From Antedon mediterranea (Eukaryota > Echinodermata > Crinoidea > Comatulida > Antedonidae): 64,000 nt of DNA. The notes under the pieces were generated by a model, which saw only the letters and a list, made by a program, of their open reading frames with translations, had not been told where the DNA came from and did not search any database. The DNA lies in the NCBI RefSeq assembly GCF_964355755.1, contig NC_092672.1, positions 5,270,001 through 5,334,000 of the forward strand. The letters are read 5' to 3'. Each line of letters begins with the position of its first letter. Positions within the stretch are counted from its first letter, which is position 1. The translations under genes were made by a program, and so were the position numbers. This document shows, in pieces, positions 12,560 to 59,599 of this stretch.

Positions 12560-15028
12560 ATGGAAAATTTCAATGACGTGGACAGTAAAGCACTTGTACC
12601 TTACAACTCCAATGTTCAGGAGAAAAAGTTTGAAGATGAGAACCATGCCGTTAGGTACAACTTTTTAAAATATACAAACACTTATAAGTACATTTGTGGT
12701 TCAACAGGCTAAAAAGCAAAATGATATTAAATAATCTTAATTAAAGAAAAAAGACAGATAAACATGAACAAAAAAATGTGAAATGGAAAATAGTATTCAT
12801 AAATTTTCGTTTTTTTTTATTTCAGAGAGAGTAGGGAGAAGAGGAACAGCCGTGGAATGTTGGTGTTTAGTCCACAAAGTAACCACGGAACTAGTTCAGG
12901 GACTTCCATTGTAAAGTAAGCAAACTGTGTTATGCTATTTTATTTGATCATGTACCAGCGAGATGGCTCACTTTGCCGCGCAAGTCTATGAACTGTTAAA
13001 GAAAGAAACCTAAATAAAAGAATCATTGATTGAATAAAAGTTTACTTTAGGATAATAAATGTTTTTAAGTTTTAATGAGGGAAAAAAGTATTTTAAAGGA
13101 ACCAATTCAACTTGTAAGGGAAATGATTTCATTTGAAAGAACCATTCAAGTTGTGAAAATATCCCTATTCAACAAATTCAAACATTATTTGTTTTGTTAA
13201 GCTCTGTCTACACTATCAAACTTTATGTGACAACATTTGATGTGCCCATATATGGACATGATGATGTCATATCACTACTATATTTGGGCATCACACTTTT
13301 TTTTCAAACTAATTTGATAGTGTAGACAGAGCTTTACACACATTAAGTAAACTTTTATTCGATTTCCATCTTGAGTACCAGTCATAGAATAGACTCATTC
13401 AACTTGCTGTTCCATTCAACAAGCTGGAAGTCAATATTGCAACTCATGAAAATATTTTCACCATTCAATGGTTACAAAACATTAATTATCATTAACATTT
13501 CTATACAATCATGTGTGTACTACTCTATTATTAAGACATTTGCAAAACATCGATATATATACAACAGTCTAAAATTGATTGTTTTTTTACTGCCTCAGAC
13601 AATACAAATCTCTGGAATATTAATGTATAGTAGGCCTACAGTTGATTTGTAATCATCTATGTTATTAAGTTTAGAGTTATTTGACAAATATATGTATTTT
13701 TATTTTTAATCAGAAACAGTGGAGACGAGGGTAGTGCTATCAGTAAAATGTCAAAGAGAAAGTACAAACAAAATGGTAAACAAAAGTAAGTAAAGATGAT
13801 CAAGAAAGATGGATGTATGACACACAAAACTGGTATTAAATTTATAGATGCACCTCAGGCAGATCCAAGGTGTGGTGGAGGATGGGGAATTAGACCCAAT
13901 CAATTACAACTCCCCAAATTGTGTTATAATGCAAAAGATATGACAGGTCAAGATTTTGATTAAAACACATGTCACCAACTTGCAAATTGCTTTTAAGTGT
14001 AACACTGTGTAAAGCTATACATATACATTGTTCATTGAAATATGACAATTATTTTTTAAAGGTAATTTTAACTTTTCTTTAAAATTTCAGAGATAGTGGA
14101 GATGAAAGTGGCAGTCAGGGAATTTTAGCGTTTAGTCCTAAAAGTAACTATGGAACTTCTCCAGGCACTTCCATTGTAAAGTAAGAGAATTTTTGTTCAA
14201 GCTTAAAGATGTATTGTCCCTTTGACTAATTCCAAAAAAATTGTAAAAAAAGATATTGAAAAAAAGTGGGTCATTTTGAAGTATCATAATAGTTATTAAC
14301 TTTCACCAAAAATTAGTCCAAAAAAAAATCATTTAACTGAAATACAGATGTTTTTTTGTTAAAAATATAACTTGGACTTCCAGTCAAAGTTTTTGATCAA
14401 AACATATCTTATAAATGCAAATTTGCTTGTTTGGCTACTCTGTATGCATAATCATAAAACTTCCTCGCGATCTGTGTGAAAACACCTTCTCAACCGTGAT
14501 GAGTTGTAAACAATTCTAATTAGCATCATGCATAATGCATACTCGTGGTTTGAAAACTTTGTTTACTTTCGCTCGCGACGATTTTCCAGACGAAATATAA
14601 TCAATTAATTTACCTGTTAATTACGTAAACTTGTTGTTTTTGGCTCAAATTTTCGACTTAAAGTTAATAACTTTAATATTACTTTGATATGGCCAATTTA
14701 AATTTAGAATATTTTGACGTTCATTTTTGTGTGTTTCAAGGGACAATACATCTAATTCAAACTTTTAAACAAAAAAGAACTACAAATAATCTTTGCTTCT
14801 TCTAGCTGACATGTATTTGTGTTTGTATTGTGTTGTGGCACCAACTGGTATCAGGGAGAGGGTGCGTGAGTAAGATCAGAAATGGAGCAACAATAGCTGA
14901 ATATGATGATGTTATATATATATTTCTTGATTTTCAAACAGGAATGGTGGAGACGAAGTAGATAATCGTGCTAATGTTGTGTTCAGTCCAAATAGTGCTC
15001 ATGGCAACAGCAGTTCAACCAATCAGAA
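12560..15028 (+). CDS. Channel gene 1: five N-terminal cytoplasmic exons with a duplicated FSP module
   Basis: Exons 12560-12654, 12826-12915, 13714-13785, 14091-14180 and 14942-15028 all begin and end in phase 2. Three encode the same module: [40 protein letters not shown] and [16 protein letters not shown]. The 72-nt exon keeps only the leading part (K-N-S-G-D-E). All five lie before TM1 and so are cytosolic. Symmetric phases mean each repeat exon could be skipped or added without changing frame. The repeated F-S-P serines could be proline-directed kinase sites (inference). Confidence 0.85.
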
Positions 15029-18000
15029 GTAAGTTGTGTAATACAGAGATGCAGAATTCCTAAAAAACAAATGAAAAAGACAAAGCAGTTAAATTAGCCT
15101 TTTCCAAAATAAAAAATGTTTTTTTATTCTTTTTAAAGAAATTTCTCATATTTAACAACTACTAGTTGAAATATATTTCGTTTGTGTTTTAGTGGTGTTA
15201 AGAAAGAGAACGATATTCATTGGAAAACTGACCACCCTTCTGCTCAAAGAGGTGTTGGTACGCAGATGGCATTTGTACTGGATCGACCTAGGATCGACGG
15301 CAGCCGCCTCAAGATAGAGTCAATTGGTACTGAATCATTCAAAGGCAATAAACAGGGAAAATCCTCAACAGGGAAAAAGTCTTCTGAAAAACAGAATACT
15401 ACAGATGACGATGCTAGTTCAGTAAACGCAGATGCGTCCTACCACGGCGACTGTGTTCATGACATTGTAGAATACTTTGCCACTGATGTGACCACTTTAC
15501 ATGCATTGCCAAACGTGTTCAAGTCGTGTACGCTACTTGCGAAAAGCTTGTGGGCTATCGTTTTTATGACGGGAGTGTTTTTGTTTTTGTTTCAAGCATC
15601 GTTCGTCATCAACAAATATCGTGATGGACCAATCCAAGTTAACGTAAGTACAGTACTAAAGCCTGTAGCCAAGATTTTTTTTTTCTTCATAAAGGGAATT
15701 CAAGCGTAAGCAAGCACTGTGGACTAAAAGGGTCCAAAACTACTGAAGAAAGTATTGTTGTAGGCCTAGCCAAGTAGATGGAATTTGCCTGCTGACTCAG
15801 CAGGATTGGCCAAATTTATTGTCATCTAATCACTCTGTTGTTGGTGAAGGCTACTTCAGAGGAAAATCACCACAGGCTTGGTATATATTTCATACTGTAA
15901 AACCACGAAAAGAATCCCATGGGCTTCTTTTTTTCTTTTTTTTGAGTGTGCTCTTTTTGTGATGGGTTTCTTTTCGAGGTTTTACAGTATTTTGTTTGAA
16001 GCTTCAAAACTTTCATCAATTCACAGCAATACAAAGATTATTCAGTTTACAATATGCATGTGTACTTTGGTTACTGTTTTATGTATATATTTTTTTCAAT
16101 ACTATCAATTTTATCTCCATTCCAGCTGGAAGTCGTAACCAAATCATCGCTTGAATTTCCAAAAGTTACAATTTGTAACACAAATAAACTACGGCGGTCT
16201 GCTGTCGCTAACTCAAAATATCGTCAAGTTTTGATTGTGGATGAACTTAAATCACTTCCTTATTATGGTAATAAAAAACTCTATACACATATCTATTTAA
16301 TACTATAGTATCTAACATCTATAAGGCCTCAATAGGAATCTTAAACACTGCATCAAAAAATACATTTTTTTGACCAGCATATTATTAATACAGTAAGCCT
16401 ACAACATATTATAAAAATGAAAAATAGTGGGCAGGAATAGCTAATCGCTGTAACTCAACCAGCTACCACTCACATTAAAGTATATTGTTGATTTAGAAAA
16501 TGTTTTCTTTTATATATGTACAGCACCGTGTATAGAGGATGACTTCCAATGTGTCAATGAATTGATTTGTGTCAAACCGTATCTAATCTGCGATGGCGTT
16601 AACCAGTGTCGCGACTTCAGTGATGAATATGACTGCACTTACCGTAAGTCTAAATTTAATTAAGTTAGATTAAGTAATAATTAAATAACTGTTGTATACA
16701 CTTAACTGGTTTAACATACGATTGCCGTGTTCCATATTTTATCTGGCATTGTTGCACTGTATGACTTATATATACTAGATGGTACGCTCGCTTCCCTCGT
16801 GTACCATCTAGGTCGTGCCCACAGATGGTTCTCGAATACACAGTAATTTCAGCGTAAAAAAATGCTTTTTTTAATGTACGTACTGCAGGACGATAATAGT
16901 TATTATTGTTTACAGAAACAAATAAATAGACACGATGATTTATGTATTAAACTGAAATTAGCACACTGGGAATTACTTCCGAAAGAGAAACTTGTCACAA
17001 AATGAGTCCAAATTTGTTATTTGGACTCATTTAAACAAACCCAATTTGTGTTTTGTGTGTAACATTATTTTTTAGGGATGGGGAAGAGGATATGGGTACA
17101 AAGAAGAACAATGTTTTAATATATTATTTATCTACTCAGTAACGAAATATGTTTTTCACTTTGATAGGCCTATAAATAATATACCACTTGATACAGTAAC
17201 ACATTTGCGATTTAATACTTTGTTAAAACTGTCACTGTTATAGTCCATTGAAATAGCATGTACATGTAACGATACACGTACCACTACAACGTTTATGTTC
17301 TTTGTAATTATTAATTACAAACGTTGAGAAGCAACTGTCAGTAGTACAGTTTATTTGTATATTGTACGTTTTATATAACAGTAGGGCCTACTCACAGGCC
17401 TATAAATAATATACCACTTGATACAGTAACACATTTGCGACTTAATACTTTGTTAAAACTGTCACTGTCATAGTCGATTGAAATAGCATAGTACATGTAA
17501 CGATACACGTACCACTACAACGTTTATATTCTTTGTAATTATTAATTAATACAAACGTTGAGAAGCAACTGTCAGTACTACAGTTTATTTGTATATTGTA
17601 CGTTCTATATAACAGTAGGGCCTACACTCACAGTAATACGTTTATTTGTACATGATTGTGTTATACATCTAACAGTACCCACACTCACAGTAAATTCAAT
17701 GGCGACCACAAATGTTAATACTTATTTACAGTAATGTCCAAGTATTGCAATACTTATCTATATATAGGTTTTAGGTTAATTCCCCAAGGGCCAATAAATT
17801 TACCTACAGCTGGTGGTACTTGTGTTAAAGCAAAGAGTTATTATTGGAATGTTCCATTCTTCAGAAATCAATACATTTGTATAAATGTATATTAAATCTA
17901 TCAAAATAGTATTTTTTTAAGAAAATAGGTCTGTCTTCAACATTATGATGCTGTACTCGAGCTGTTCAACCGGTTTTCATCCATTAAAAACAATTATCGT

Positions 18001-21000
18001 AGGAGGAGATAGGAAAATGCGAAGCATAGGAGGAGATAGGAAAATGCGAAGCATAGGAGGAGATAGGAAAATGCGAAGCATCCTCGTATTATTGTATGCG
18101 GGTATTTTTCAAGATAGACATGCATTGGACAGTGTATACCACGATCGCAAAACACCCCTATTTGGGGCAAATCGTTGAACCTAACTTCGTTTTAATCGTC
18201 AATAACTAATTATCGAACTCCATTTAATTAGTAAACAGGGTTACATCAGGTGGTTAAAATCAGTATCGAAAGTACGAACCAACTTTATATATCATCGAGT
18301 AAACATTCTAGAAGTAAGGCGCGATTTACCGAATTTTGCCCTTACGTAAATTTATATATAGATATATATAATGACTGGGAATAAACTTGAAAAAAAAAGG
18401 CACCAAAGAGAAAAAAGAATGATTGGATATAAACTTGTGATATTCGTTTTTCAGCATCATGTAAAGAAGGATTTTTCCGATGCAGTAACGGGAGTAATGA
18501 TGGCGTATGTATCGCATCAAGCAGGGAATGTGACAGAGTGGTAGACTGTTATGATGGGGCTGATGAAAATGAATGTGGTAAGTTGTCTTTTGTAGTGAAG
18601 CTGTAGTTTGGTGGTTAAACGTGCTTGCTTTCTAATCCAAGGGTTCAATCCAGTGGAACTGTTTTCAATCCACTCGATAAGCTTCAAATGAGTATATAGT
18701 TTATCAATCCTTTAATTTGCAAGTTAACTCACTGCTGTGCAAGGCTGTAACAAGAGCTTAACAAGAGACGAGGCAAAGATGCTTTTATTAAAATAAAATA
18801 TGATGATCTCTGCTGGGAATTAGGGCGAGTAGTGAAAATTACGGCCCTGATGTATATGAAGTAAAGTGTATATTTGCCAGAATAGCATCAGAAGAACCAC
18901 TCTGAATACTGTTATAAACTATTGTAAACCCAGGATAAAAACTATTTAAAGATTTGTATCAGCGGCCAGAAATTTTATTCATTTTCAAAATGAAATCATT
19001 TGTTCATGTTTGGTTAAATTTTCAAATAAACCCTTTTGTTTCTCTAAAATAAAGAAATTACGCAATAAGTGTATGGACTTAATTCATGAAATCTAAATCA
19101 AATACCGTAGATTACTGTAGTTAAAGTATCAATAGTCCATAGTCTCATCAAATTATTGATGTTTTATTGATTATAGTATGTAAAGGAACTGAATATAAAT
19201 GTGTATCAAGAGGAGGTTGTATTGATAAATCAAAGGTCTGTAACGGTATTGATGACTGTGCGGATAAAAGTGATGAAAAAGACTGTGGTAAGCATTCTAT
19301 GTATTGTACTACCATTATTATTATTTATACTGAGCGACCTCATCAGTCAAAGACTGGTCTCCGAGAGGGCCCAGTTATGACCAGTGGCTGTGTAATAATA
19401 ATAATAATAATAATAATAAGATTTATAGAGCGCACATATCCACAAAGTGCTCAAGGCGCTTGTGAAAACCATGAGAAATGCAAATGTATGTGCTTAGTAC
19501 ACCGGGGTAACCCCCTACTCGTCTCGAATAATGTACTAGTGCACATGAGCTAGATGTGTACACTGGACCTACAGTTTGTAGTCCTTATCTGAGAAGACTC
19601 ATCCTACCACCAGAACCATGCAGCGAGTGAGCCTCAAACCCTTGCTGATGTTATGGCTACATAATTACGGTTCCAATGTCTTAACCGCTCGGCCACTCAC
19701 TATTATAAACAAAATATGTATAAATTAATTAAGTTCTTTTACTTCTTTTTGCAAACCCAGAAACAGTTCTTAATTTAATGTAATTTTTGGTAACCTCTAA
19801 TTCTAAATTAGCCTGGGATAACCAATAAATTTAGTTATGTCTGTTCCCAACATGCTATGACAATCCATTGAAAAGATAGGTATTTGATATACTATTCATG
19901 GTTTAATTTACATAAGTATTTAATCGGTAATTATAGATGTAGGTGATGATAGCACTGAATGCGGTGATGATGCATTTCAATGCTGGGATGTTGACGAATG
20001 CATTAACCGTCAATTCCTTTGCGACGGTTATTACGACTGTAAAGATGGATCGGACGAGGATCCCACTGAGGTCTGTTTTGTTCCCTCAACGGTTGCACCT
20101 ACGCCAACGTGTAAGTAAAGCTTTGTCTACACTATCAAACTTTATGTGTCAAAAAAATGTGATGTGCCCATATATGGACATGATGATGTCATATCACTAC
20201 CATATTTAAGCATAGCACTACCATATATAGGCACATCAAACTTTTTTGACACATAAAGTTTGATAGTGTAGACAAGGCTTTAGGTTTGCTTTTCGTTCTT
20301 GGTCTCTCTTAGCTATCCCCATCAAGCCCATAGTCATTGAGTCATGTTACACATGAAAGACGTCTGATTGGTCAAAAGAATCAACATTGAATATGTGTTG
20401 ATTTTTTGGTTTCTATTCTCTCTACTACTTATTAAAGCAGTAGTGCTTGTATGATCAAGGTAATTTAACAGGACACTGAGCTCGCCTTGCCAAGATAGGA
20501 ACTCGTAACATTCCTTTGATCTTATGTCTGGTTGCGACAAATACCAACAGTACTGTACTATGTACATATTCTCCACGGTGTGCGGTGTCTGTTTAGTCTA
20601 TTTCGTGAGATCCCTACCTGTATAGACTCTACATATGCCATTATTCCCAATATGGACACCCCTCGAAAGGAAAATGGAATTGTCCAGGCGCCGTAGCCAC
20701 CACTGTTGGTTTGTGTATTTGTGTGGATACTGTTCTATATTGTTTAGTCTTAACTTTGTACCCTTTTAACATTCTCAAATGCCAGTGTACCCACTTGTCT
20801 GTTCGGCTGATGAGTTACAGTGTGATGGTCTCAATTGCATCCCGTCCTACTGGGTATGTGACGATGTAGCAGATTGTCTAGACGGAAAAGATGAACAGAA
20901 TTGCCATGATACACTAAATGAAGTAACTGAAGCTTCAGCAGTTATCGGTAAGATTTTAATACACGTCTTTATTAAGCAGTAAAATATGGGCACACTTATA

Positions 21001-24000
21001 TGATTGGATAGGAGTTACTAAAAATAATATGTAGAAGCACTAAGTCTTTCTTAACAGTAATACTTGTTATGTTATTTTCAGTAAAGTATAGGAATATTTC
21101 TTAACGGTAAGACTCTGGGAGGAAAGACTCTGGGAGGAAAAGGAGCTTATGTTATTTTCAGTATAGGAACATTTTCTTAACAATAAGATTCAGAAATGGA
21201 TAAGATTTTTTATTTTATGTCTTTAGACGCATGTGGCCATGGATTACCAATAGTAAATTAATCACTGTCCTATCAAATAGGTGGTAATCCCCCTGATACA
21301 GGGGCTATTTTGTGAACCAGTTCACCGGGATAACCCTCTACTTGTCTTGAATGATAAACTGGGTTTTTGTGCACAAGTGGGTTTATATAGTAATTGTGTA
21401 CACTGGACCTATGGCTTATTGTCCTTATCTGGAGTGGAGTTGTGGCTTGGTGGTTATGATGCTTCGCTACCACTCTAAGGGTCCTGGGTTCAAGTTCCGT
21501 CACATGTCAGGATTTTTTCTAAGGACAAAATTACAACGCCTCTCCAAAGACTTGTAATAAGACTTTGTTTTTATGTAGAGCATCTTGTGTATATGTTTGT
21601 CTTGGGAAACTCTCTCTGAGGGTCCCTAATGATCAGCAATTGCTGGATGGATCACCCTCATTGAATATGGTCAAAACAAACAAAACAAATCTGAGAAGAC
21701 TTGTTCCACTACCAGAACTAGGAGCAAGTCAGCCTCGAACCAATGCCGATTTTTTTACTCTTTAGGTACTGTAAATGTTTTAACCGCTCGGCCATTTGAC
21801 TCACTCATAATATGCAATATTTCCTTCAAAACATTTATAATGTATTGTATTATGGTATTTATTACAGATGATGGCTGTTCAACAACTGAATTTGAGTGCG
21901 ATTATGGTTACTGTATCCCAATCTCCTGGGTGTGTGATGGTCAAATAGACTGTCAAGATTACACAGATGAGACTGGCTGCAACCCAACAACCGTGTCACC
22001 AACAACAACTCCTGTAAATATTCTTCCAGTTAGTGGTTCAGGCTCAGGACCTATTGTTACCAATCAGCTGCCGGTGATAACACCGCGCATGACCACATTA
22101 CCCATCACTACAAATGCTCCTACAACTGCTCGACTATTAACGACACTAGGGTTAGAAAACTGTAAGTTTTCGATATAAATCTCTATACAATATAATTATA
22201 TTTTAGTTTTAGTATTCAATATATTAAGATATTAAGCTTTAGAACCTAACAAATTGTCCTCGTTCTGTATGGAACTATCGCCCGTATTCGAACTTCGAAC
22301 TACGACTAAAGTCCGGTTTAAGAATACGGGCGTATGTGTTGACATCATCTAAAGGCAATATGTTTACAATGCCATTCCATACCATACAAACATTGTTGGC
22401 ATATTTATGTGCAAATAAGCTACTAGCATGACGAATATTAAAACACTAGTTGTAAAGTTTGCGCTACACCCTGTATTTCCAAAAGAAAATAACGTATGGT
22501 TTAGAGTGTCTCGATGTTTCAGTTCTTGAACTACAACCATCTCCTTATGAATTATTTTTCAGTTCGCGTTTTCGATGGCACACTGGCTGTCAACAAAATA
22601 AACAATGAAGATATTTCATACTCAACAGCATTGTCTATCCCTGGAAATATTGCGTATGTACAGTACGAGTTACTTTTCAATAATTTGGTAAGATCATATT
22701 TCATTGTAATATGGACCTATAAATCTAATTTATAGATCCTTGGTAATACTTAGCATTGTAATTAACACCTTTACATAAACTCTTTAAGTTCCCAGTGATA
22801 TACTGAAAATTAATCAATTAATTATAAACAATGAAAATGGGAATAAGAAAAAAATAGATCCAAATCCGTAATTTTCTGCTTGATATGCAGAGAAATCCTA
22901 CCACTGGGACTTCTATTGAATGGTCCTATTGGATTGGATAGCAACTCGAATGTCCTTGTAATGGTACAGTTGAATAACACTAGTTCTCAATTGTACTCAC
23001 ATGCAACAAAGATCAAATTGATATACCCTCATCTTTGTAATATTGATTCACAAAGAAGAGTTACAGGTAGTAGAGATAATTTGGTAATACATTTTTGTTG
23101 TATGTGGGAATTGTGTATAAAGGCAGAATGTTCAGTTTCGCCCTAAGATAAGCAGTACTTGCACTGCAAAGAAAACAAGTTTGAGATACTGTAAAATGGA
23201 AGTTTCCAATCACAAATTTCTTTTTTTTCTAGTTGCAAGCTGAGTATTCACAATTATCACCTACAACTGTTATGGTCAATGGTTTCAGCCCTGGAAGCAT
23301 TATCGTTCATTACACTCTATTGTTTGATCAATCTTCACATCTGACCGTCTATGAATTGGCTGATGTATTTTCGTTTGCGCCCTCAGAAACGACAGCTACA
23401 ATCACCAACGACGGTAGGACATTTGAATATAGACAGTCATCAACAAATATTTATTGTAAGTATTTTTTTGTATTCTCATTTAAATTGCACAAAATAAACA
23501 ATGTTTGGTTTTGAGAACCACAATTCTGGCATTTTTTAAGTTGATGCAAGACTGGTACGAAGTATGCAGATAATATAAATTTACTTTACCTATATCCTGT
23601 AGTGGCACTGTGGCTTTGTAGTTAACATGCTTGCTTATCAATCCTTGGTTCTTTGGTTCACATCCTGAGCATCCTTTAAGTCTCATTTAAGAATTGGTCT
23701 ACAAATAATGGGTCTTCTATTGTGTAATTTGTGAGTCATGCGCTTGCTCTTGATTTGTTTAAACATTTTTTTAGTCATTTGTGTGTATATTTTCCCATAA
23801 TGTATTTTTAAATGGATGAACAAATGTAAGATGTGATACAATGATTTTTAAAAGTAATGTTCTCTAGTAAATTTTATTTTTCAGCTCGATGCCAAAATGG
23901 TGATTTCTCCTGTGATGGCGAGTACAATGGAGGTACCTGTTTGCCTTTTGATTTTAGGTGTGATGGTGTATGTGACTGTAGGGATAGGTCTGATGAGCTT

Positions 24001-42483: not shown

Positions 42484-42489
42484 AATAAA
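42484..42489 (+). promoter_or_regulatory. Candidate poly(A) signal of channel gene 1
   Basis: AATAAA 343 bp after the stop, with a second AATAAA about 75 bp farther on. Plausible, but not tested by transcript data. Confidence 0.45.
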
Positions 42490-43076: not shown

Positions 43077-43232
43077 GGCTCTGTCAACACTATCAAACTT
43101 TATGTGACAAAATGTGTCCATATATGGACATGATGATGTTATACTACCATATTTGAGCAACCATTACCTATCACTATATTTGGGCACATCACACTTTTTT
43201 GTCAAACAAGTTTGATAGTGTGGACAGAGCTT
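43077..43232. mobile_element. Palindromic MITE, family 1, copy 9
   Basis: The ends 'aggctctgtcaacactatca' and 'tgatagtgtggacagagctt' are inverted, with 'tatatggacatgatgatgt' inside. Confidence 0.9.
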
Positions 43233-44435
43233 TAGTATTAGCGCGTTACGGTTTCTGACGTCAAAAGGTAGTCATTGATCGAACTTTAGAAATATTAGAA
43301 CGTGGATGACAAGCTATTTGACAACAGCCTAGGTCTAAATAAGTACAACTAAAGTAAAACTATTTATAAAAATCTAGCGATATGTAACATTATTATATAC
43401 ATATGTACATTATAGTAATAATAATCATAGACTATATTATATGATAATTAAAAAATAAAAATATATTTTAATCTATTTTGTTGAGTTTTTTTAAATTTAC
43501 ATAAAAGAAAAGCACAACATAAAAATATTTAAAATGAAATACAAATAAAGACAATTTAAATTAAATATACCTGTAAGTACAATTTCACCGCGTTTACTAT
43601 TTCACACCTCTGTTTAAAAAAAAAAATTCACAAGCTATTGGGTCGTGCGGGTTACGAGAAATAAAACAACGTTTAAGAGTTTTTAATTATATTAGAGGTG
43701 GGTTGTTCCCACGAAACACAAACAAAAAAATAAATATAACGTTTTAATAATTGATTGCCGAATGCGATGAACAGTTACAACTTCCTGGTTTTACCATGTG
43801 CGATGCTAACGATATGGAAATAGAAAGAATCTTTTAGTAGAGTTAGAACTATACTGTCTACAGTATAACGTGAATAAAAAATAAAAGTTAAATTGCTAAA
43901 TTTACGATACGTTGTTCTAAAATTTCAGGTACCCCCGTAACAGAGTGCACCCCCTATTGAATTACAAATGACGTCACAGTCTAATTTGCATTGCGATCCG
44001 CCCATATTTTTTGGATATAAATTGCATTTATGTTGTGCTATACAGGTAGTCATACACACATCGAATATATACATAGCTTTGGTAAATAGCAGTATAAATA
44101 GCCTAACTAACTAGTTTATATTGATTGGTACAGAACATGCGTACTACAAATCGATCATTTTGCCTTGCAGATGCAATATGATATTGTTTGAGGTTTGCTA
44201 ATGAGTTATGATAACTTATGACTTATTACGATTAAATAGCATACCATATGTTGATTCCCGTAGGTAGCTCAATTCTTACTTCACACCATGGATATGACTA
44301 ATGAACATTCATGTTAATTTTGTGACGTTTCATGAGGGGGTTCCCAACTTATGTACGAAAAGAAATATCGCTACCTGTCAAGATAAATAAAAGCGGAATT
44401 GAGTCGGGCAATAGAAAATACTTGTTTTGCAATAA

Positions 44436-44441
44436 TTTATT
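44436..44441 (-). promoter_or_regulatory. Candidate poly(A) signal of channel gene 2
   Basis: TTTATT on the plus strand reads AATAAA on the minus strand, 67 bp beyond the stop of channel gene 2. This would give a very short 3' UTR. Confidence 0.5.
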
Positions 44442-44507
44442 CGGACGGATCGGCGTCATCCAGACGTTTTGGATGTTAATTTCTATTTAGAGTACCGGTA
44501 GCCAGTT

Positions 44508-44675
44508 TCATACTGTAAGATCATCACAGCGACTGTTTTTAGCGCCTACACTGTGGTATCGCTTCATTTGCTTCACAAGTTGAAAAAGTAGTTCGAGAAA
44601 TTCACAAAAGCTGATGAATGAAATTCCAATGTACAAACCAGCCGTCCCACCGATGTCACTGAACAAACTTTCAAC
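44508..44675 (-). CDS. Channel gene 2: last exon with TM2
   Basis: It encodes [20 protein letters not shown] then [14 protein letters not shown] as TM2, and a tail of about 23 residues ending in LTV and TGA. The filter triplet is G-I-S (1520-1522). The shorter tail has no PPxY motif; the final D-L-T-V could be a PDZ ligand (inference). Confidence 0.95.
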   Translation of the reverse strand, partial: VESLFSDIGGTAGLYIGISFISFCEFLELLFQLVKQMKRYHSVGAKNSRCDDLTV

Positions 44676-50600: not shown

Positions 50601-53600
50601 GAATCTTTATTAGATGGTTCATCTGGCTCTGTTTGTGAATCATTGTTAGAGGTAATCTCTTGCTGCGATTGAGATTCGCCATCAGATTGTTCATCTGGCT
50701 CTGTTTGCGAATCATTGTTAGAGGGAATGTCTTGCTGCGATTGAGATTCGCCATCAGATTGTTCATCTGGCTCTGTTTGCGAATCATTGTTAGAGGGACT
50801 CTCTTGCTGCGATTGCGATTCGCCATCAGATTGTTCATCTGGCTCTGTTTGCGAATCATTGTTAGAGGGACTCTCTTGCTGCGATTGAGATTCGCCATCA
50901 GATTGTTCATCTGGCTCTGTTTGCGAATCATTGTTAGAGGGACTCTCTTGCTGCGATTGAGATTCGCCATCAGATGGTTCATCTGGCTCTGTTTGCGAAT
51001 TATTGTTAGAGGAACTCTCTTGCTCCGATTGAGATTCGCCATCAGATGGTTCATCTGACCCTGTTGGCGAATTATTGTTGGAGGAACTCTCTTGCTCCGA
51101 CGATGACGAAGATGAATGATGATAACCGTAGTAGTTGTAGTAGTTGTAGTTGTAGTAGTCATTATAATATGATGACGAGTAGATATCTGTTAAAAATGTT
51201 AACTGTTAATCTGGCTGTATTTAGTGTTTTTAACTGTCCACCTTATACAGTCGTTCTGATAACTATAGAAACCCAGGAGTGTCCCTTGAATAGGGGTGTC
51301 ACAATGGACGGGTTATTTATACACAGACTGTATTACCTCTTGTTCATTTCACGAGAAACTGTCCCCTTAGTATAGGTATCCCAGAAAGTTTCATACAGAA
51401 ATATAAACAAATACTCGTTTAGTCTAAACAATATCATGGTATATAATATATTAATTGATACAGTAGAAAATAGATAAACATAAATAGAAAAGAGTAAAGC
51501 CAGTATACATATTTATATTAATCAGAATCCATCCACTTTAAATCAAGACTTTGTATTTCAGCAATGAAAGAAAGATTGTATTGTTAAGAGCAATAATTGT
51601 GTTATTTTATTTTCGTCACGTGTCTGAACAACAAAAATATTGTATTTTTTTTCGCAGAATCATCATTGTATTTGCTACAGAAATAGAGATTATTATCAAC
51701 AATCATTTTAAGGTAGGTATAACTCATGTTTTTGTAAATAGTTTAGAAAGTTTTAAATTAGTAATTACTTCGCTACGTCGTTCGTAAAATATTTAAAACG
51801 AATAACCAGTAAAATAACTTACAGTAATCTCCGTTACAATCGGCTTCGTCTGACGCGTCGTCGCAATCGTCGTAGCGGTCGCATTTCCACCCTCGCGGAA
51901 GACACACTTGGTCACTCACGCAGATAAAACCCCTACACTCTGGAATTGAATTTTTTATGTTACAATTCGTAATTATATTAAAATCATTATCATCATCATC
52001 TATTATTTGAGTCAGCTTCCTCTCTTACAAGGGGTTACTGACTGTAACTCGTTCCAAGCTGCTACACCATCTCTCTACTTCTTCCTGTCTTGCCCATCAT
52101 GTTCCTCCAAACCAACTTTCCTGCTTTTCTTCTTTACCATATTTTTCAACGTGGTCTTTCTGTTCTACCTCCAAATTCAAAATGTCTCTTTACTGGTTCA
52201 TATTTTCTTGGAGTCTTAGATTATCAGTATTATTAAAGTAGTGTCAGGAGTGTACAGTAGCTGAGTAAGATTGGTTAAATTTGAGAAAGGTTGGGAGAAA
52301 GAAAACTTACCACAGTCAACCTCATCAGAATTGTCACCGCAATCCGAGTATGCATCACATTCCCAGTTTTGCGGGATACATTGCCAACCGTTCGCACAAG
52401 CAAATTCATAAGGTTGACACGCATCAAAGTATAGGCCTAACCCGTATGAATCTTTTCGAGAAAAAAAAATAACAATTGCATTTAATAAGTCACAAAAACG
52501 TCCCAAACAGCACTATCTACACTTTCATAATATCGATTTAAAACCAGATATTATGATATTTTTTTTGCATTGATTTTAACTATAAGTTTTCGTGTAGTAG
52601 ACGACCTAGAACTTGTCATTCTCCCTTAATTTGTTTATTCTACGTTCCTTGTACAAATACTAGTACTAGTATTTATATATAAACACTTCTAGACTAAATG
52701 TTAATTTGATTTTCCTAACGTACAAACTGAAGCCCAGTTTCACTTGGCAAACGTTATCAAATGTTGGAATCGAGTTTGCTAGTGTATTCCATCTAACTTG
52801 CTTTCTGGTAGTTTTTCAAGATTTGCCAACTGCTCTACACTAACTTTGAAAACTATTCTTGGAAATTTTTTTGGAAAACTCGGAGAATACTCGAGTTTCT
52901 AAAGAAACGCCAATGCCAGTGTAGATTTCTGCAAATTTGTTTTTGGTAGTTTCCGAAGTTTGTCAACTGGTCTACACAAACTTTGGAAAACGTTTCTTGA
53001 AAAACTTTCAAGTTTGCAAACAAACGTTTGTCAGTGTAGGATTCTACACACTTGTTTCCTGGTAGTTATCCGAAGTTTGTCAATACAACTGGTCAACTAG
53101 AAAAGTTTTGATAGTTTACTTGAGTTTCAAAACCAAAAGTATGCGAGTGTAGACGGGATTAAGAACGTTAAGAAAGTTTAATGAACACTTACAGGATCCC
53201 CAACAGTCCTGCTCATCGCTACCATCCGAACAGTCTGGTTCGAAGTCGCATACCCAAGACCCTATTATACACTGGTAATTCAAACACTGGAATTCTCCAG
53301 CGGAACACGCTGTTAAAGAAGTGAGAATTCATATTTTTATATATTGTATAACTTATGCTCTGTCTACTTGATCAAACTTGTGTAATGTGCCTAAATATTA
53401 CATCATCGTGTCCATATATGGGCATATCATATTTTTTTTGTCACACAAGGTTTGATAGTGTAGACAGAGCTAGATATTTCATTGTTAATCCATCCATCCA
53501 TCCATGTACTGTTATCTACTAACTTTATTCAATAGTTATGTGGGAAAGATCATATTATTCCTTAACTTAATTAAAAATATTTTAAATTGACCTTAATTAC

Positions 53601-56600
53601 GTTCTCCGTTTCCCTTCTCCTGTTTTCATTCTCTCACACACCACCATCATCATCAGTATTATCACAATCATTTAGAAAATGATGATTTCATTTTACAATG
53701 TTACTAATATTGTTAATCTGCAACATACTGTACGCCAGATGAAAGAAATAATAGACCTATATATTATGTACACTATTCAACCATGTAAGAATTATTTACA
53801 TGTTTATTCCCAGAATCCTATATGTAGTAACTTATTTAAAATAATTATTAAAATAATATTTAACCTGGTGCCAGCGTTGTTATAACAATACAGTTTTCTT
53901 CCAACTCGTCTTCGCCTTTTTTGCAGTCTTTAAATCCATCACATCGATAGCTATTTGGAATACAAGCCCCGTCTTCTGGACACTTCCAACCATCCGTACA
54001 ATCGCCATCTGCAAAGAAAAAATACTGTACAAAAAATACTGTAAAAAAAATACAGTAAAAAAAATATTGTAAAAAAAAAATATTGTAAAAAAAAATAATG
54101 TGAAAAAAAAATACTGTGAAAAAAAATACTGTAAAAAAAAATACTGTAAAAAAAAATGCTGCAAAAAAAAACTGTAAAAAAATACTGTAAAAGAAATACT
54201 GTAAAAAAAATACTTAAAAAAAAAATACTGTAAAAAACCGATTGACTTAACGCGCCACCGATCAGTTGAAGGTTGCCAGATCTTTAGAAAGATTTCAAGT
54301 AATCATTATTATGCTAAAAATGATACATCTATAATATTCAAATTATCCGTATTTTTTTACGCATGCGCATATATTCTTTACGCGCTCTATTATTTCTTTT
54401 GTTTGGTGCATCGTCGCGGAGTAAACAGTTTCTTACCGCATCCAACCTCATCACTACCGTCGGTGCAATCCGTCGTGTTGTCACATACAAGTTTCTTTTC
54501 AATACATCCGCCACGCTCCACACATTTAAATTCTTTTATTTTACATTCTACAAAGAAAAGGGTCATTATAAATTCAGAATGTTGTTATTTATTTTATTAT
54601 ATTTATTAATTATAATTAAACCTAGTTTTTCGGTAATTTATTTCATTAAATATTCTTTTGAGTTTTAAAAACTTTTCTAAAACAAATTAGTAGTTCATTG
54701 TAAATGTCTTTATTCTACATATTCGTATGAAGAATCATTTTACTTTCTAACTTGTCTACCTGACTAACTGAGGCAGGATATAAAAGAATAAATATTCAAA
54801 GGAGTAAAAAAACGAAAACAAGCAACCAAATGTGACATTAGATATTACATTATGTTGCTATTGGTTACAACAGATGTGTTCGTGATGAAAATGAATGACC
54901 TGATATTGAATATCTGCAACAAGAGTTGTCGATGATGATTTCATATAATGAAAAAATATTTTACTAGTTTTTCTACTGTCAATCAAAAGTAGGAAAAATT
55001 AAAAGTGATGCCGTTTTTAAAATATGATCTATACTGGCCATCATACAAAACAAAGATCGCTATACAATAGAATAGTTCAATATAATAACAATTTGACAGG
55101 AAAAGCGTGCTTTTATCTCACCACAATCGTCCTCGTCTTCGCCATCATAACAATCTTTCTGTCGATCACATTTGCGTAAAATATCAATACAAACTCCACT
55201 AGCACTTCCATTTGAACATTTGTATAAGACGTCGCTACGACAGTCTCCTGCCAATGGTTACAATAAAAGAAAATCAATGTTAAATTAGTTGCCACAGTGT
55301 CCATTTAATATGAGTTAAAGTCAACGTAACTTTATTTCTGGACGATTGGCCATTGACCAGGTTAATTCATTGGACACTATTGTATACTTTGTGTTGATAT
55401 AGCATTATATTTCGTCTGTCAGCTGCATATGGCACACGGTCACGTGTGTGCTATTTTAACTGTATACATTGCACTCAGACACTAATATTGACCAATAGAA
55501 ATAAACAGTCTTCGGGCAATTAAAGCCATTTTCAACTCCTCTAATTAAAGACCAAACGATTAAGTCCTTTTCTCTACCCGTTATTAAAACAAATTATGTA
55601 TTCTGTGATTGTTGATTTTAATTAAATACTCCTAATACATTATTAAATATATATTAATGGTTATAGATTATCTGTTGTATCAATTACGAATGACGCCGGC
55701 AAATTGGAATTATTATTGTTTCGTCATTACAAACTTTTTAAATGTTATAGAATGTGAATAACCCAGTCACGATAGGAAAACAAACGCATTACGTCGTCTG
55801 GTGTATGTACGACGCTGATATTATTAGATGTGAGATTCAATGAGGAACACAAATATTCTGGCATAAACTTACACGTATTAAAACTTACCGTAAATACAAC
55901 CCGCCTCATCACTGAAGTCCCGGCAGTGATTGATTCCATCGCAGCGTAAATAGGGCTTGATACAAATTTCCCCAGACCCACAGGAAAAATCGTTTTGTAG
56001 ACAAGGTGCTATGGAAAAAGACAAAAAACATATTAACAAATTAAAATGTGGAAGTATACGATATTTATTTATACAGTGTAATTCCTTTTATTCCTTAAAG
56101 CCCGGTTTCCACTGGAGACGGACGTAAGCGCAATACCTTATTTGACCAATCACAAGCGATGAATAATTCGAACTGTCGCTTTTGATTGGTCAACACGCTT
56201 GCGTTTCGTCTACGTCAAGCTTCAGAGGACACTCAACAAAGTAAGGTTAGCCGTTATAGTGTTAAAACAAAATATACAGTTCAATTCAATTCATTTTTTT
56301 CCTTCAATCCTATTTATTTATTTCCTCAAACACTCAAAAACATGTCTTGCTTTTCACGGATAAAAAAATACAAAAACCATAAAGAGAAGAATCAATCGCA
56401 TCATAAAAATATCACAGTATTTCCCCTCGTTCTTTTTACGGGAAGTGTCCCATAATAGAGGTTCCAATAACATTACGTATTCTTCCTTCTTTATATACAT
56501 TTTTTGGAGAATTTATCTTCAACATTCCACAATTTATTAATGATCGACATTTAAATATTGTTCCATAATATCAATATAGTTAATGGTCAATAGATATCGG

Positions 56601-59599
56601 TAGAATATCGATATGTCGCTTCCTTTTATTTTCTGGACATGCAGTTAATTAACTTAAAGAATATATACTTTAATATTGTGATCTCCATTATTAGCTACAT
56701 ATAATAAAGCAATGAAATTCGATGCATATCAATATTCATTTTACCGGTGTTTTTTGTTTTCCTTTTCAGTCAGGTGTCTTAACTTCAATTAGACAAGATC
56801 GATAGAATACAAAAACAAAAGGCTTGTCTCATTCTGTAACTTAATGTTTGAACAAGAACTTTCGATCTTATTATTATGCTTTTAAGAATATGAAAACAAT
56901 ATCAAATATTTATTTGGGCCACATTTCTTTATTTGTAGACTGCACCACGGTTGAGGATCAATTACATCTTTTGGGTGACAGTTTGCTCTTTATTTGCACG
57001 ATATGTATTGATCAGCAACGAACTATAGTTTAGGTTAAGTGGTTCTTTTTCTATATTAACATTTAATAATACGGTTATGTAACTGCCTTCTGTTCTATAG
57101 TACATAATTTAACTAATAATATAATTGATTATTGTATTTCCACCATGATTACAAAATCGCGACAAAGGCCAACTTCAGTAAAAATGGTTTAATTGATTAC
57201 AATGTTTATACTAGTATTGCAAGACGTGAGCCAATATGATTAAACATGTTACCATACTTTCTCACCAGCTACACAATATATATACTAGTTGATAAATAGT
57301 ATTGATAGCACACTTTATTAAAGAATATAAGGCTCATGATGTTAGCCAACGTGATGAAACTATTATAATGCAAAAGAGCTGTACAAATTACATACAATAA
57401 TTAAGTTATATCTATAGTCAGTACAATCTTGAAATTAAAAAAAAAAAGAAACTTTAGTAGAATTCCGAATGTTTTCTTGAACAAAAAAGTATATATATTG
57501 TTTGAGGATGCATAAACAGTAACCCATGTGGGAGGACGGTTGCCGTCAGCAAACACGAAACTGCGTGGATGTTTATCATCGCTAAACATGATACCACAGT
57601 TGAATCAGTTTGATAATTAGGCTTGGATTAATGAACTATCATATAATTACATATTATGAACAATTACTCAATTTTGTCCGAGCTTTTGTTTGAATTACCA
57701 CCCGCATTTTACGTCATTTTTCTGTTGTAATTTATTGTACATGTATTTTATTATTCTGTGATATAATTAAATATATCAATATATTGCCTTGAGGAGGATG
57801 AGGAAGGGTTAGTGTTATCTGAAAACTCTGTAATGTCGTTCTGGCTGTTTCTATCTATCGTTTTGATTTAATGTCTTGTCTATTTTATTTGTAACTCCAT
57901 TTAGATCCAGTCAGATCACCGATACCCACATAATTGTCATTGTTCTCAAGTAATTTTCCTTTGATAAATATAATGGATTGATTAAATATACGTACCATAG
58001 TAAGGCAAAGTTGTGTCTTTATCAACAATCAACAACTGCCTGTGTTCTGAATTTGCTATCGATGATTTGCGAACCTTGTTGTTATTGCATATTGTCACAC
58101 TTGGAAAGCGCTGCTCAGATCTTGATATTACTTCAATCTGTATGAATAAATAACAATAGCAACAATCAAGTCTAAGATAAGATAAGATAACTTTTATTGA
58201 TCCTTAAAAAAGAAATTCATTGCTCGTCATAAAACAGAAAACACAATAAATAAATTATAGGATAGAACAACCATTCATATAAATACATCTAAAAAGTAAA
58301 AAATAAATTAAGTTATCTTCTTGACTTCCTGTTGTACTGGATGATACCGGAGGGGATAAAGGATTTGGCATATCTATATGTTCTGAGTGGTTGCCTTATA
58401 CATAAAACCCATGTTCAATTCCCGATAAGAACAATTCCCAGTCAATAAGCTGTAAATGATTAGGCCTACCTGGTTGAAAAATACCACAGGAAGGTGGAAG
58501 GTGGCGGGGAAAGGAACTGACCACCCTTACCACATGATACTGAGACTCAGTACAATTCTATTTCCCCTACTTAAGAATGAACACTGGAGTAACGTCTTCT
58601 GGCATGTAGAAACAACTTTGCTCTGTTAACTGTTTCCAATCCTCCACCACTCCACTACTAACTTTCCACTATATAAGATTGAAGACCCATTTGTGTTGGT
58701 GTATATCAATTAAATAACCAAACTTTTGATCACAGCACATTAAAAAAAAGGAAATATTTACCTCCGAAATTTTCCTCTAACAGCTGATAACGTTTACAGA
58801 TACATTTTTTTTTTCACTATGTTGTGATTTCCACCAAATTGTCTTTCAGTATATGAAACGTTCTTTCATCAAAATGCCCATGTGTATACTTAATTTCCCT
58901 AATCTCCCTTCTCCTCCCATCCCCTCCTCCTCTCTCTTCTTCGCCCATCTATATACGTTGCTTTTTGTTTCATTTTATTGTTTACAGACGTGACTTGAGT
59001 ACCAACTTTTGTGTATTTGTTCGATTATATTTATTTATGTCCATAATCGTATAATACTAATGTTTAATTACTTTTTCTAATTCATCACACGTTCAACAGT
59101 AAATTTAGTTGTCAAGAAGTACATGATGCATCGTTTGGTTGTCTTTGTTTTTGACAATGAATCGACAAGGCACTTTCATAACAGTCATACTTATTTTATG
59201 AATATCTATATAAATTAACTTAATAATTTTAGTTATACATACCTTTACGTTGACTGGATAACCAAAGTAAAGAACGGCTAGTGTTGCAACCTGCCATATA
59301 AACATACTAACTCCAATCAAGAATAGAGTTGCCCAAATTGCACGACTGAACAAAGTTGTAGATTTGAAAACATGGGGTAAACCATGGGTACTGCTAACAT
59401 TTTTAGCGAACGATCCAAAAAGCGCGCCAACCGATTCACGGTCATACAACTCTTCTTCGGGTTCCGGCGGCGGTACAGGTAGCATCATCGGAATGTTAGT
59501 TGATTCGGACTTGATAAACTTTTCCTTTAGTTTCAAGTCGGTCATGCTGGCAGGAGTTGGTGTCCTAACCCAAAAAATACTGTCTGAGTTGGCATCCAT
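44508..59599 (-). CDS. LDLa-rich DEG/ENaC-type channel subunit (channel gene 2, 23 exons, about 1,558 aa)
   Basis: Exons from 5' to 3' on the minus strand: 59599-59243, 58137-57996, 56008-55889, 55247-55122, 54547-54437, 54008-53865, 53309-53193, 52451-52311, 51939-51823, 51186-49501, 49302-49183, 48944-48813, 48723-48604, 48222-47925, 47570-47464, 47347-47184, 47048-46926, 46789-46684, 46589-46517, 46269-46212, 46088-46018, 45288-45213 and 44675-44508. They sum to 4,677 nt with unbroken phase. Order: short N-terminus with HG motif (72-73); TM1 (about 87-110); RFPSVTICN strand; LDLa 1-7; acidic Ser/Glu repeats with RRRR (976-979); LDLa 8-10; Cys-rich ectodomain with [19 protein letters not shown] and [13 protein letters not shown]2 with GLYIGIS. 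It is the inverted paralogue of the gene at 12560-42141. One intron uses a GC donor. The start is the only ATG upstream of the HG region in its exon. Confidence 0.94.
44769..44914. mobile_element. Palindromic MITE, family 1, copy 10
   Basis: The ends 'aagctctgtctacactatca' and 'tatagtgtagacagagctt' are inverted; the interior has 'aatatggtagtgatatgccc'. It lies in the last intron of channel gene 2. Confidence 0.92.
45031..45177. mobile_element. Foldback MITE, family 2, copy 3
   Basis: 'aagcttggttcctaccagga' against 'cctagtgggaaccaagctt', with 'cgtaacgcaacgcaa' against 'gcgttgcgtctacgt' inside. The best conserved copy of this family. Confidence 0.9.
45213..46789 (-). CDS. Channel gene 2: distal ectodomain exons (five)
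   Basis: Exons 46789-46684, 46589-46517, 46269-46212, 46088-46018 and 45288-45213 have lengths 106, 73, 58, 71 and 76 nt, identical to the partners in channel gene 1. They encode [66 protein letters not shown] and [15 protein letters not shown]. Confidence 0.95.
45767..45914. mobile_element. Palindromic MITE, family 1, copy 11
   Basis: 'tctctgtctacac' at the left and 'gatattgtagacagagact' at the right are inverted. An internal duplication and a poly-T insertion disrupt the left arm. Confidence 0.78.
46926..48222 (-). CDS. Channel gene 2: proximal ectodomain exons (four), one with a GC donor
   Basis: Exons 48222-47925, 47570-47464, 47347-47184 and 47048-46926. Motifs are [46 protein letters not shown] and [11 protein letters not shown]. 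The first three keep the phases and near-identical lengths of channel gene 1 (298/301, 107/104, 164/164). The last ends GACAGAAAG followed by GCAAGT, a GC-AG intron with otherwise perfect donor consensus, because the next exon (46789) begins in the required phase 0. Confidence 0.93.
48604..48723 (-). CDS. Channel gene 2: LDLa 10 exon (membrane-proximal)
   Basis: A phase 1-1, 120-nt exon encoding [20 protein letters not shown] and [10 protein letters not shown]. It is the counterpart of LDLa 16 in channel gene 1. Confidence 0.95.
48813..48944 (-). CDS. Channel gene 2: LDLa 9 exon
   Basis: A phase 1-1 exon encoding [20 protein letters not shown] and [12 protein letters not shown]. The calcium site is retained here, unlike in its degenerate counterpart in channel gene 1. 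Confidence 0.93.
48982..49071. mobile_element. Foldback MITE, family 2, copy 4 (short)
   Basis: 'gagtggttcccactgacgca' and 'caagtggaaaccaagg' are inverted, with 'gttgaccaatgagaatcgac' inside. It starts about 40 bp upstream of the LDLa 9 acceptor of channel gene 2. Confidence 0.75.
49183..49302 (-). CDS. Channel gene 2: LDLa 8 exon
   Basis: A phase 1-1, 120-nt exon encoding [19 protein letters not shown] and [16 protein letters not shown]. Confidence 0.94.
49501..51186 (-). CDS. Channel gene 2: acidic Ser/Glu repeat exon with a furin-like site
   Basis: A 1,686-nt exon, phase 1 in and 1 out. It begins with a Tyr/Asn tract ([16 protein letters not shown]) encoded by a (TAC/AAC)n tract, then about six 24-residue repeats (72 bp; [17 protein letters not shown] type). 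Then come about seven 35-residue repeats (105 bp; [20 protein letters not shown] type), and a unique end holding [15 protein letters not shown] and a Ser/Thr-rich stretch. There are no cysteines. By analogy with channel gene 1 it is an extended acidic stalk, but the repeat sequence is unrelated. R-R-R-R (codons at 49636-49625) fits a proprotein convertase site. Confidence 0.92.
49842..50480 (-). repeat. 105-bp coding tandem repeat, about 6-7 copies
   Basis: 'tcagttgctgaatctatttc' recurs at 49947, 50052, 50157, 50262, 50367 and 50472, exactly 105 bp apart. The period is a multiple of three. Confidence 0.95.
50640..51075 (-). repeat. 72-bp coding tandem repeat, about 6 copies
   Basis: 'gattcgccatcaga' recurs at about 50672, 50744, 50816, 50888, 50960 and 51032, exactly 72 bp apart, encoding 24-residue units. 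Confidence 0.95.
51823..51939 (-). CDS. Channel gene 2: LDLa 7 exon
   Basis: A phase 1-1 exon encoding [19 protein letters not shown] and [16 protein letters not shown]. Relatively GC-rich for the window. Confidence 0.94.
52311..52451 (-). CDS. Channel gene 2: LDLa 6 exon
   Basis: A phase 1-1 exon encoding [20 protein letters not shown] and [17 protein letters not shown] chose the acceptor 'ttttctcgaaaag' (pyrimidine-rich); a second AG 18 bp downstream ('gggttag') is in the same phase and would shorten the linker by six residues. Confidence 0.9.
53193..53309 (-). CDS. Channel gene 2: LDLa 5 exon
   Basis: A phase 1-1 exon encoding [20 protein letters not shown] and [10 protein letters not shown]. 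Confidence 0.94.
53357..53471. mobile_element. Palindromic MITE, family 1, copy 12 (short)
   Basis: 'gctctgtctacttgatcaaa' and 'tgatagtgtagacagagct' are inverted; the interior is reduced to 'catcatcgtgtccatatatg'. Confidence 0.85.
53865..54008 (-). CDS. Channel gene 2: LDLa 4 exon
   Basis: A phase 1-1 exon encoding [20 protein letters not shown] and [12 protein letters not shown], then VITTLAP. The calcium site is weakened (K-K-G-E-D-E). Its donor is gttaaa, weaker than its neighbours. Confidence 0.9.
54015..54235. repeat. Degenerate A-rich minisatellite ('aaaatactgtaaa')
   Basis: About 14-16-bp units of 'aatactgtaaaaaaa' with length variation in the A run, immediately upstream of the LDLa 4 acceptor of channel gene 2. 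On the minus strand it is a long T-rich tract that could act as an extended polypyrimidine stretch. Confidence 0.88.
54437..54547 (-). CDS. Channel gene 2: LDLa 3 exon
   Basis: A phase 1-1, 111-nt exon encoding [20 protein letters not shown] and [10 protein letters not shown]. Counterpart of LDLa 3 in channel gene 1. Confidence 0.94.
55122..55247 (-). CDS. Channel gene 2: LDLa 2 exon
   Basis: A phase 1-1 exon encoding [20 protein letters not shown] and [16 protein letters not shown]. Donor is gtgaga. Confidence 0.93.
55889..56008 (-). CDS. Channel gene 2: LDLa 1 exon
   Basis: A phase 1-1, 120-nt exon encoding [20 protein letters not shown] and [16 protein letters not shown]. Same length and sequence type as LDLa 1 of channel gene 1. 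Confidence 0.95.
56098..56222. mobile_element. Foldback MITE, family 2, copy 5
   Basis: 'agcccggtttccactggaga' and 'cgtctacgtcaagctt' flank 'aatcacaagcgatgaataat' and 'gtcgcttttgattggtcaac', which are inverted. The right tip is truncated. Confidence 0.78.
56225..57995. other. Large intron of channel gene 2
   Basis: AT-rich, with no supportable exon. A fragment of the 'tgtcccataatagaggttcc' dispersed repeat lies near 56450. A minus-strand open stretch of better base composition (57500-57590) is discussed under rejected items. Confidence 0.5.
57996..58137 (-). CDS. Channel gene 2: post-TM1 exon
   Basis: It encodes [20 protein letters not shown] then [20 protein letters not shown]. It has 142 nt and phase 0 to 1, as in channel gene 1. 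Confidence 0.95.
58168..58340 (-). repeat. Probable retroelement 3' end
   Basis: 'taagataagataacttttat' followed by 'tgatccttaaaaaagaaatt' on the plus strand reads as a minus-strand tail ending 'tcaataaaagttatcttatc'. Such short-repeat tails are common at LINE 3' ends. No reverse transcriptase sequence is present. Confidence 0.45.
58376..58560 (+). repeat. SINE family A, diverged copy
   Basis: 'ctgagtggttgccttataca', 'catgttcaattccc', 'ctacctggttgaaaaatacc' and 'ggaaaggaactgaccaccct' match the element at 34001-34215 in order. Confidence 0.5.
59243..59599 (-). CDS. Channel gene 2: first coding exon with HG motif and TM1
   Basis: 119 residues: an N-terminus with [14 protein letters not shown], then [11 protein letters not shown] with the gating His-Gly (72-73), then TM1 ([20 protein letters not shown]). 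It ends FGYPVNVK before 'gtatgt'. The N-terminus is much shorter than in channel gene 1 and lacks the FSP modules. Confidence 0.94.

Follow-up and report, generated by a model that had tools for sequence, protein, structure and literature searches.

Do the LDLa exons that interrupt the DEG/ENaC channel genes of this locus belong to the channels, or to mRNAs of their own? The window, by which we mean the whole 64,000-nucleotide stretch of the Antedon mediterranea genome analysed here (positions 5,270,001 to 5,334,000 of NC_092672.1), holds two convergent genes, A and B. Read in six frames, both are DEG/ENaC genes with a giant insert within the ectodomain, and the exons that separate the channel motifs are cysteine-rich and low-complexity. 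An earlier note, made from the letters of the window alone, had described such a pair with inserts of about 2,600 and 980 residues, and in this our models agree with it.

The models are conceptual ones, in which anchors are joined by our own splice-site scores and by frame consistency. Gene A (15266-42141, + strand, 34 exons) encodes 3,221 aa and gene B (59599-44508, - strand, 23 exons) 1,542 aa, both open throughout. The residues before, inside and after the insert number 173, 2,606 and 442 in gene A, 166, 973 and 403 in gene B, and 168, 973 and 406 in a third paralogue, gene C, introduced below. All junctions of the three genes are GT-AG, except for one GC-AG intron each in B and C. Taken alone, the length of the open frame in a repeat exon counts for little, because other frames of the same repeats are open too. 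The start of gene A had been placed at 12560; we move it to the ATG at 15266, which gives an N-terminus resembling those of B and C. The open reading frame at 12560 was tried as the gene start and rejected, its best splice scores being only -0.9.

Table 1. Parts of genes A and B and extent of gene C. Positions are those of the window unless a contig is named.
Feature	Position	Strand	Basis
Gene A exon 1: N-terminus (HA replaces HG), TM1	15266..15643	+	start codon modelled on B and C
Gene A exon 2: first palm strand FPKVTICN, likely finger helix alpha1, ends LPYY, phase 1	16126..16267	+	alpha1 read from the alignment of the gene B equivalent with ENaC alpha
Gene A exons 3-8: six LDLa exons, phase 1-1	16524..22161	+	Pfam, reciprocal-best comparison
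Gene A exons 9-10: SEA-like pair with GSIIV	22563..23413	+	by eye; no Pfam match
Gene A exon 11: LDLa, then Thr/Pro-rich mucin-like repeats	23885..24799	+	
Gene A exons 12-13: SEA domain with GSLIV	25158..27030	+	Pfam SEA, 9.2e-13
Gene A exon 14: LDLa and beginning of a third, weak SEA	27543..27790	+	
Gene A exon 15: remainder of weak SEA; acidic stalk (repeat units of 42 bp and 45 bp)	28312..32257	+	
Gene A furin-type site RKKR	32233..32244	+	
Gene A exons 16-24: LDLa modules (Pfam finds 7 stretches), plus an EGF-like exon	32446..36923	+	
Gene A exons 25-34: post-insert finger, beta-ball, thumb, palm, TM2 (G-L-S)	37625..42141	+	
Gene B exon 1: N-terminus (HG present), TM1	59243..59599	-	
Gene B exon 2: strand FPSVTICN, probable alpha1, ends LPYY, phase 1	57996..58137	-	
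Gene B exons 3-9: seven LDLa exons, phase 1-1	51823..56008	-	Pfam
Gene B exon 10: stalk, first Tyr-rich, later acidic and Ser-rich, with repeats of 72 bp and 105 bp	49501..51186	-	
Gene B furin-type site RRRR	49625..49636	-	
Gene B exons 11-13: three LDLa exons ahead of channel resumption	48604..49302	-	Pfam
Gene B exons 14-23: channel from the finger through TM2 (G-I-S); exon 17 is followed by a GC-AG intron	44508..48222	-	
Gene C: 28 exons, 1,547 aa	C3:5335116-5362376 (window-scale 92376-65116)	-	

The core of A with the insert removed matches the Pfam ASC family (PF00858) with an E-value of 1.1e-82, and B and C match it with 2.2e-72 and 5e-71. The landmarks named in the earlier note (FPxVTICN, GHQxxDFIL, YGNC, PGVITS and the G-x-S of TM2) can be read in both A and B. 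The FPxVTICN-type strand and TM2 are read directly in the models (in gene A: [27 protein letters not shown]), two transmembrane segments are present, and the TM2 motif is GLS in A and GIS in B and C. HG is a cytosolic motif ahead of TM1 in DEG/ENaC channels; it is present in B and C and is HA in gene A, where the second YGNC position also reads KTGSC. With these two departures, which set it apart from B and C, gene A may be a modulatory subunit.

Where in the channel does the insert sit? A phmmer search of the insert-free B core against the PDB matches 31 distinct sequences, the best of them human ENaC alpha (6wth_A, 1.5e-49). Core residues 40-173 form the first stretch aligned with ENaC alpha; it takes in TM1, the FPxVTICN strand and the insert junction (166/167), which it passes by 7 residues, and the alignment resumes at 249. 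Against two gamma chains the first aligned part already stops at residue 147, which is 19 residues short of the junction, and all three ENaC alignments resume only at core residue 246-249. Judged by these alignments, the insert most likely lies within the finger domain, at the end of helix alpha1, the limits of the helix being what we take them to be. The predicted structure of the post-insert finger exon alone (mean pLDDT 46.9) is unreliable.

As for what the inserts contain, Pfam reports 15 LDLa stretches in gene A, summed over four scanned pieces (5+2+1+7) that leave the mucin-like and most of the acidic region outside, 10 in gene B, and 10 in gene C, where they are accompanied by SRCR (4.4e-30) and kringle (2.6e-11) matches. 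One SEA domain is clear in gene A, one is below the cut-off (0.0024), and the third SEA-like pair goes undetected. For EGF, Pfam gives no match in the EGF-like exon of gene A and a match below the cut-off in that of gene C (0.039, 14.7 bits vs. the 21.5-bit EGF cut-off). The distal part of the gene C insert is an acidic Ser-rich stalk followed by three LDLa exons, after which the channel resumes.

The two genes of the window turn out to be more than a pair. Gene C, whose 3′ end is 5.5 kb past the first exon of gene B and 1.1 kb beyond the window edge, was traced from an ASC match at C3:5361987-5362169, one of 90 in the genome. A genome search with the post-insert part of B gives 43 matches, which include genes A, B and C on C3 as well as 11 positions on C8, where we observe an array of 11 tandem DEG/ENaC copies on one strand (C8:4321565-4450111, that is, 4.32-4.45 Mb). 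In every copy LDLa exons separate the alpha1 exon from the finger exon. Altogether, reading a subset of the 90 ASC matches, we find 14 LDLa-carrying DEG/ENaC loci: A, B and C on C3 and the 11 on C8.

Six LDLa exons (L1 to L6) are found per C8 copy, in constant order, with L1 broken in copy 4. All 10 of the exons tested, from copies 3 and 11, are above the Pfam cut-off for LDLa, and the fourth LDLa exon of copy 3 gives two Pfam stretches. In copy 3, the one copy that is fully linked, the insert consists of LDLa exons alone, and it enters and leaves in phase 1; its inner link from L5 to L6 has a weak splice score (-1.9). Copies 1, 2, 4 and 7 have a stop, a frame break or a missing exon and look damaged, and no stops were seen in the sampled exons of copies 3, 5, 6, 8, 9, 10 and 11. 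In copies 5 and 8, L1 loses its last residue match, and in copy 11 TM2 was not found. Selenocysteine was considered for the TGA in an LDLa exon of copy 1 and rejected, the ten other copies having TGC or TGT there; an Rfam scan of four loci reported no SECIS, all of its 7 matches being below gathering scores.

We can now return to whether the LDLa and channel exons belong together. A phase-1 GT donor directly follows the LxYY exon in A, B, C and in all 11 of the C8 copies, and an LDLa acceptor is at the matching place in 10 of the 11, the check in the damaged copy 4 having fallen on a broken fragment. The LDLa exons of A, B and C have collinear reciprocal best matches on the N-terminal side of the insert (A3/B3/C3, A4/B4/C4, A5/B5/C5 and A7/B7/C7) and further ones on the C-terminal side (A22/B11/C16 and A24/B13/C18). 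What differs is the middle of the insert: SEA, mucin-like and acidic repeats in A, the acidic stalk in B, and EGF-like, kringle, SRCR and stalk in C. In C8 copies 3, 6 and 11, the best match of L2 is exon 4 in 9 of 9 comparisons and that of L1 is exon 3 in 7 of 9, with B7 preferred in the other two; compared with B, L6 prefers B11 in 3 of 3, and compared with C, L5 prefers C7 in 3 of 3. L3 and L4 of these copies have no consistent partner among the LDLa exons of A, B and C.

The LDLa exons of the C8 copies are constrained like the channel exons: omega is 0.26-0.37 in LDLa exons vs. 0.24-0.39 in channel exons (Nei-Gojobori, 6 of 8 pairs computable, the other two, both with copy 11, being saturated), for pairs that share copies and hence are not independent. 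That A, B and C are single DEG/ENaC subunits with giant ectodomains is well supported. Because of the paralogy, the shared site and phase, the collinear orthologous LDLa exons and the constraint, it is unlikely that LDLa and channel exons are in separate mRNAs.

Whether the insert arose once is less clear from the tree. In a tree of 14 rows, in which copies 1, 4, 7 and 9 of the C8 array were left out, the LDLa genes do not form one clade; the best tree needs 2 changes for the LDLa insert, and 26% of 200 bootstrap trees give 1. Positional orthology favours one origin.

The three C3 proteins have another property in common. The motif RX[KR]R occurs exactly once in each whole protein, as RKKR in A, RRRR in B and RKRR in C, and in all three the low-complexity stalk carries it at its distal end. 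In 2,000 shuffles per insert, at least one RX[KR]R appears with frequency 0.0095, 0.0105 and 0.031 (A, B and C), for a motif that had been spotted by eye before the shuffle test. The sampled exons of the 11 C8 copies have no RX[KR]R, and therefore a cut there would not be general to the LDLa-carrying family. ENaC has its GRIP domain, in which the furin sites are found, between alpha1 and alpha2 (PMC6197857), and activation requires two cuts in one subunit (PMC8791634). The GRIP-type mechanism involves two polybasic sites around an inhibitory tract, and we do not assign the C3 genes to it, because they have one site where ENaC has two cuts. The position of the insert, together with the one furin-type site in A, B and C, would favour a proteolytic step. 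A cut within the insert might still be constitutive processing with no gating role.

Taking position, phase, orthology, constraint and the furin-type site from the sequence, we infer a cut, a free arm and a part in gating, and the account that we lean towards as a whole is that of a finger-inserted, once-cut subunit carrying a tether or ligand arm on its gating finger. Phase-1 exon shuffling would have placed LDLa modules in the DEG/ENaC finger, likely at the end of alpha1, in GRIP's place, and the C3 genes would additionally have gained a long mucin-like or acidic stalk and extra modules. The protein would be synthesised whole and cut once in the Golgi by a proprotein convertase, which would turn a closed loop into two chains: an N-chain made of TM1, alpha1, LDLa and a stalk whose distal end is free, and a C-chain made of LDLa, finger, palm, thumb and TM2. 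The free arm could then extend into mucus or matrix or to a neighbouring cell, and a force on the arm or a ligand bound to it would act on the alpha1-alpha2 lever of the finger, which gates ENaC-type channels. A more specific proposal, which we hold only tentatively and with considerable doubt, is that of a lineage-specific family of cis-tethered DEG/ENaC channels, with a Golgi-cut free arm of up to ~2,240 residues, and with the linked paralogues A, B and C, whose arms differ in length and in modules, perhaps forming a heterotrimer like alpha-beta-gamma ENaC.

These possibilities overlap in part with the rivals that follow and are not mutually exclusive with them. It is very improbable that an LDLa/SEA gene is nested inside an intron of a channel gene, so that our models join two mRNAs. 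At one C2 DEG/ENaC locus the first and later ASC exons are 27 kb apart with no LDLa-like frame in the filtered segments, which means that very long introns may occur; but the LDLa exons are in the same place and on the same strand at 14 loci, their modules are collinear orthologs, and in the models the frame runs from the last LDLa exon into the finger exon without a stop. A subtler version of the question is whether the whole insert is skipped by alternative splicing, leaving an ordinary channel of ~570-615 residues and the LDLa exons in a minor isoform. The insert begins and ends in phase 1, exon 2 joins the finger exon without frameshift, and the joined gene A core matches ASC over its full length. 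Since removal of the whole insert keeps the frame, a channel isoform without it may exist, but that the C8 LDLa exons are about as constrained as the channel exons is unexpected if they belong to a rare isoform, and we regard this reading of the locus as quite unlikely.

The other two rivals accept the insert as part of the protein and differ in what it would do. It could be a ligand-binding head, in which calcium-dependent LDLa arrays capture a peptide, a protein or a lipid carrier, the bound cargo gates the channel or has it endocytosed, and the stalk is a mere spacer. The LDLa-only insert of copy 3, together with the lack of a furin-type site in the sampled C8 exons, makes LDLa the shared element, and the constraint on the LDLa exons also speaks for such a head. 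It would leave unexplained, however, why the C3 genes have long acidic or mucin-like stalks that differ from one another and yet each end in a furin-type site, and overall we give it a real though minority chance of being right. Alternatively, the insert could be a large inhibitory domain similar to GRIP, with cutting relieving the inhibition as in ENaC. It is indeed in the finger, roughly in GRIP's place, all three C3 genes have a polybasic site, and the RKRR of gene C is identical to site 1 of human gamma-ENaC (PMC8791634). Against such activation are the single site, where there should be two, and the sampled exons of the C8 copies, none of which has one, so that we consider it unlikely. 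The once-cut arm on the gating finger remains the account that we prefer.

How do these genes compare with known channels? DEG/ENaC channels in general are trimers with a Na-selective conductance that is usually blocked by amiloride. ENaC alpha and gamma, which give the best PDB matches (6wth_A and 9blr_C), are alike in having polybasic sites and extra finger sequence, which in ENaC lies between alpha1 and alpha2 and here probably does. They differ in that GRIP is small and that alpha and gamma are cut twice, whereas the C3 inserts, built of LDLa, a stalk and other modules, have 973-2,606 residues and one furin-type site each. ASIC and FaNaC share the core fold and motifs (PDB 7cfs_A, 1.3e-43, and 7yvb_A, 6.6e-40). 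The DEG/ENaC matches in the PDB (31 sequences) have 421-679 residues, too short for such an insert.

The touch channel MEC-4/MEC-10 is thought to be linked to the matrix via separate extracellular partners such as MEC-9. There the link would be made by separate proteins, and here the candidate adhesion modules are inside the subunit. LDLa arrays are shared with the LDL receptor and LRP, which are single-pass proteins, whereas the genes here encode a two-TM channel; the whole-protein Pfam scans of B and C found no family of the EGF-precursor beta-propellers that go with LDLa in those receptors, A having been scanned in pieces.

That DEG/ENaC subunits come without modules of this sort, as the earlier note had it, is too strong a statement, because in C. 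elegans EGAS-1 to EGAS-4 are named as channels with EGF plus ASC domains (PMC10424705). In oocytes, the same paper reports, EGAS currents were not above controls. EGAS and the genes here are both DEG/ENaC subunits with an adhesion-type module, for which EGAS are named; compared by module name alone, the modules are EGF there and LDLa, SEA, SRCR and kringle here, where the EGF-like exons of A and C do not reach the EGF cut-off. Among the literature matches listed (open-access literature, titles and starts of abstracts), none describes LDLa within a DEG/ENaC protein. An adhesion module joined to ASC is already known from EGAS.

How DEG/ENaC channels take up force or ligand through the finger is a live question. 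The architecture of these genes suggests that the channels have a direct link to something extracellular. If a cis-tether is the right description, matrix force or LDLa ligands would act on the gate without separate tether proteins. A presumed tether or receptor built into the finger at an exon-bounded site would allow a gating element to be swapped or removed cleanly, and nature already offers a range of insert sizes, from the six LDLa exons of C8 copy 3 to the 2,606 residues of gene A. If cleavage is shown, the furin-type site would mean that finger cleavage arose here separately from that of vertebrate ENaC.

Other ASC loci give some context for the site. No LDLa-like frame appeared in the filtered stretches at C2 6.485 Mb (the 27 kb interval), C2 10.03 Mb or C9 16.59 Mb, and two C5 DEG/ENaC genes have no LDLa. 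LDLa-free relatives at C11 1.334 and 1.340 Mb have Gly/Ser-rich low-complexity inserts of the finger inside one exon, and because these fall in the same finger region, the site seems prone to insertions.

Several further observations concern the surrounding DNA. The introns of A and B share a recurrent interspersed repeat, spotted by eye (for example at 20119-20253 and 45793-45927), whose translation is like [22 protein letters not shown]. An intronic minisatellite at 25756-26613 of the window has a period of 29 bp and 29.6 copies with 98% matches. The gene C intron that follows the stalk exon contains an element resembling an LTR retrotransposon (window-scale 72331-75873), with near-identical flanks ~3.1 kb apart and a long gag-like ORF, as judged by eye. 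At the other end of the window, positions 135-1015 of the minus strand have two tandem, near-identical open frames of 147 codons, one of which gave only sub-threshold Pfam matches; in all, three ORFs of the window outside A and B gave no Pfam match above the cut-off. A search for COX1 gave no match in the assembly, and the ASC and homeodomain matches are confined to C1-C11, which perhaps suggests a crinoid. Finally, homeodomain matches at C2:7.83-8.21 Mb mark a Hox cluster that probably points to an ambulacrarian, since we take its posterior genes, by their look, to be Hox9/10 and 11/13.
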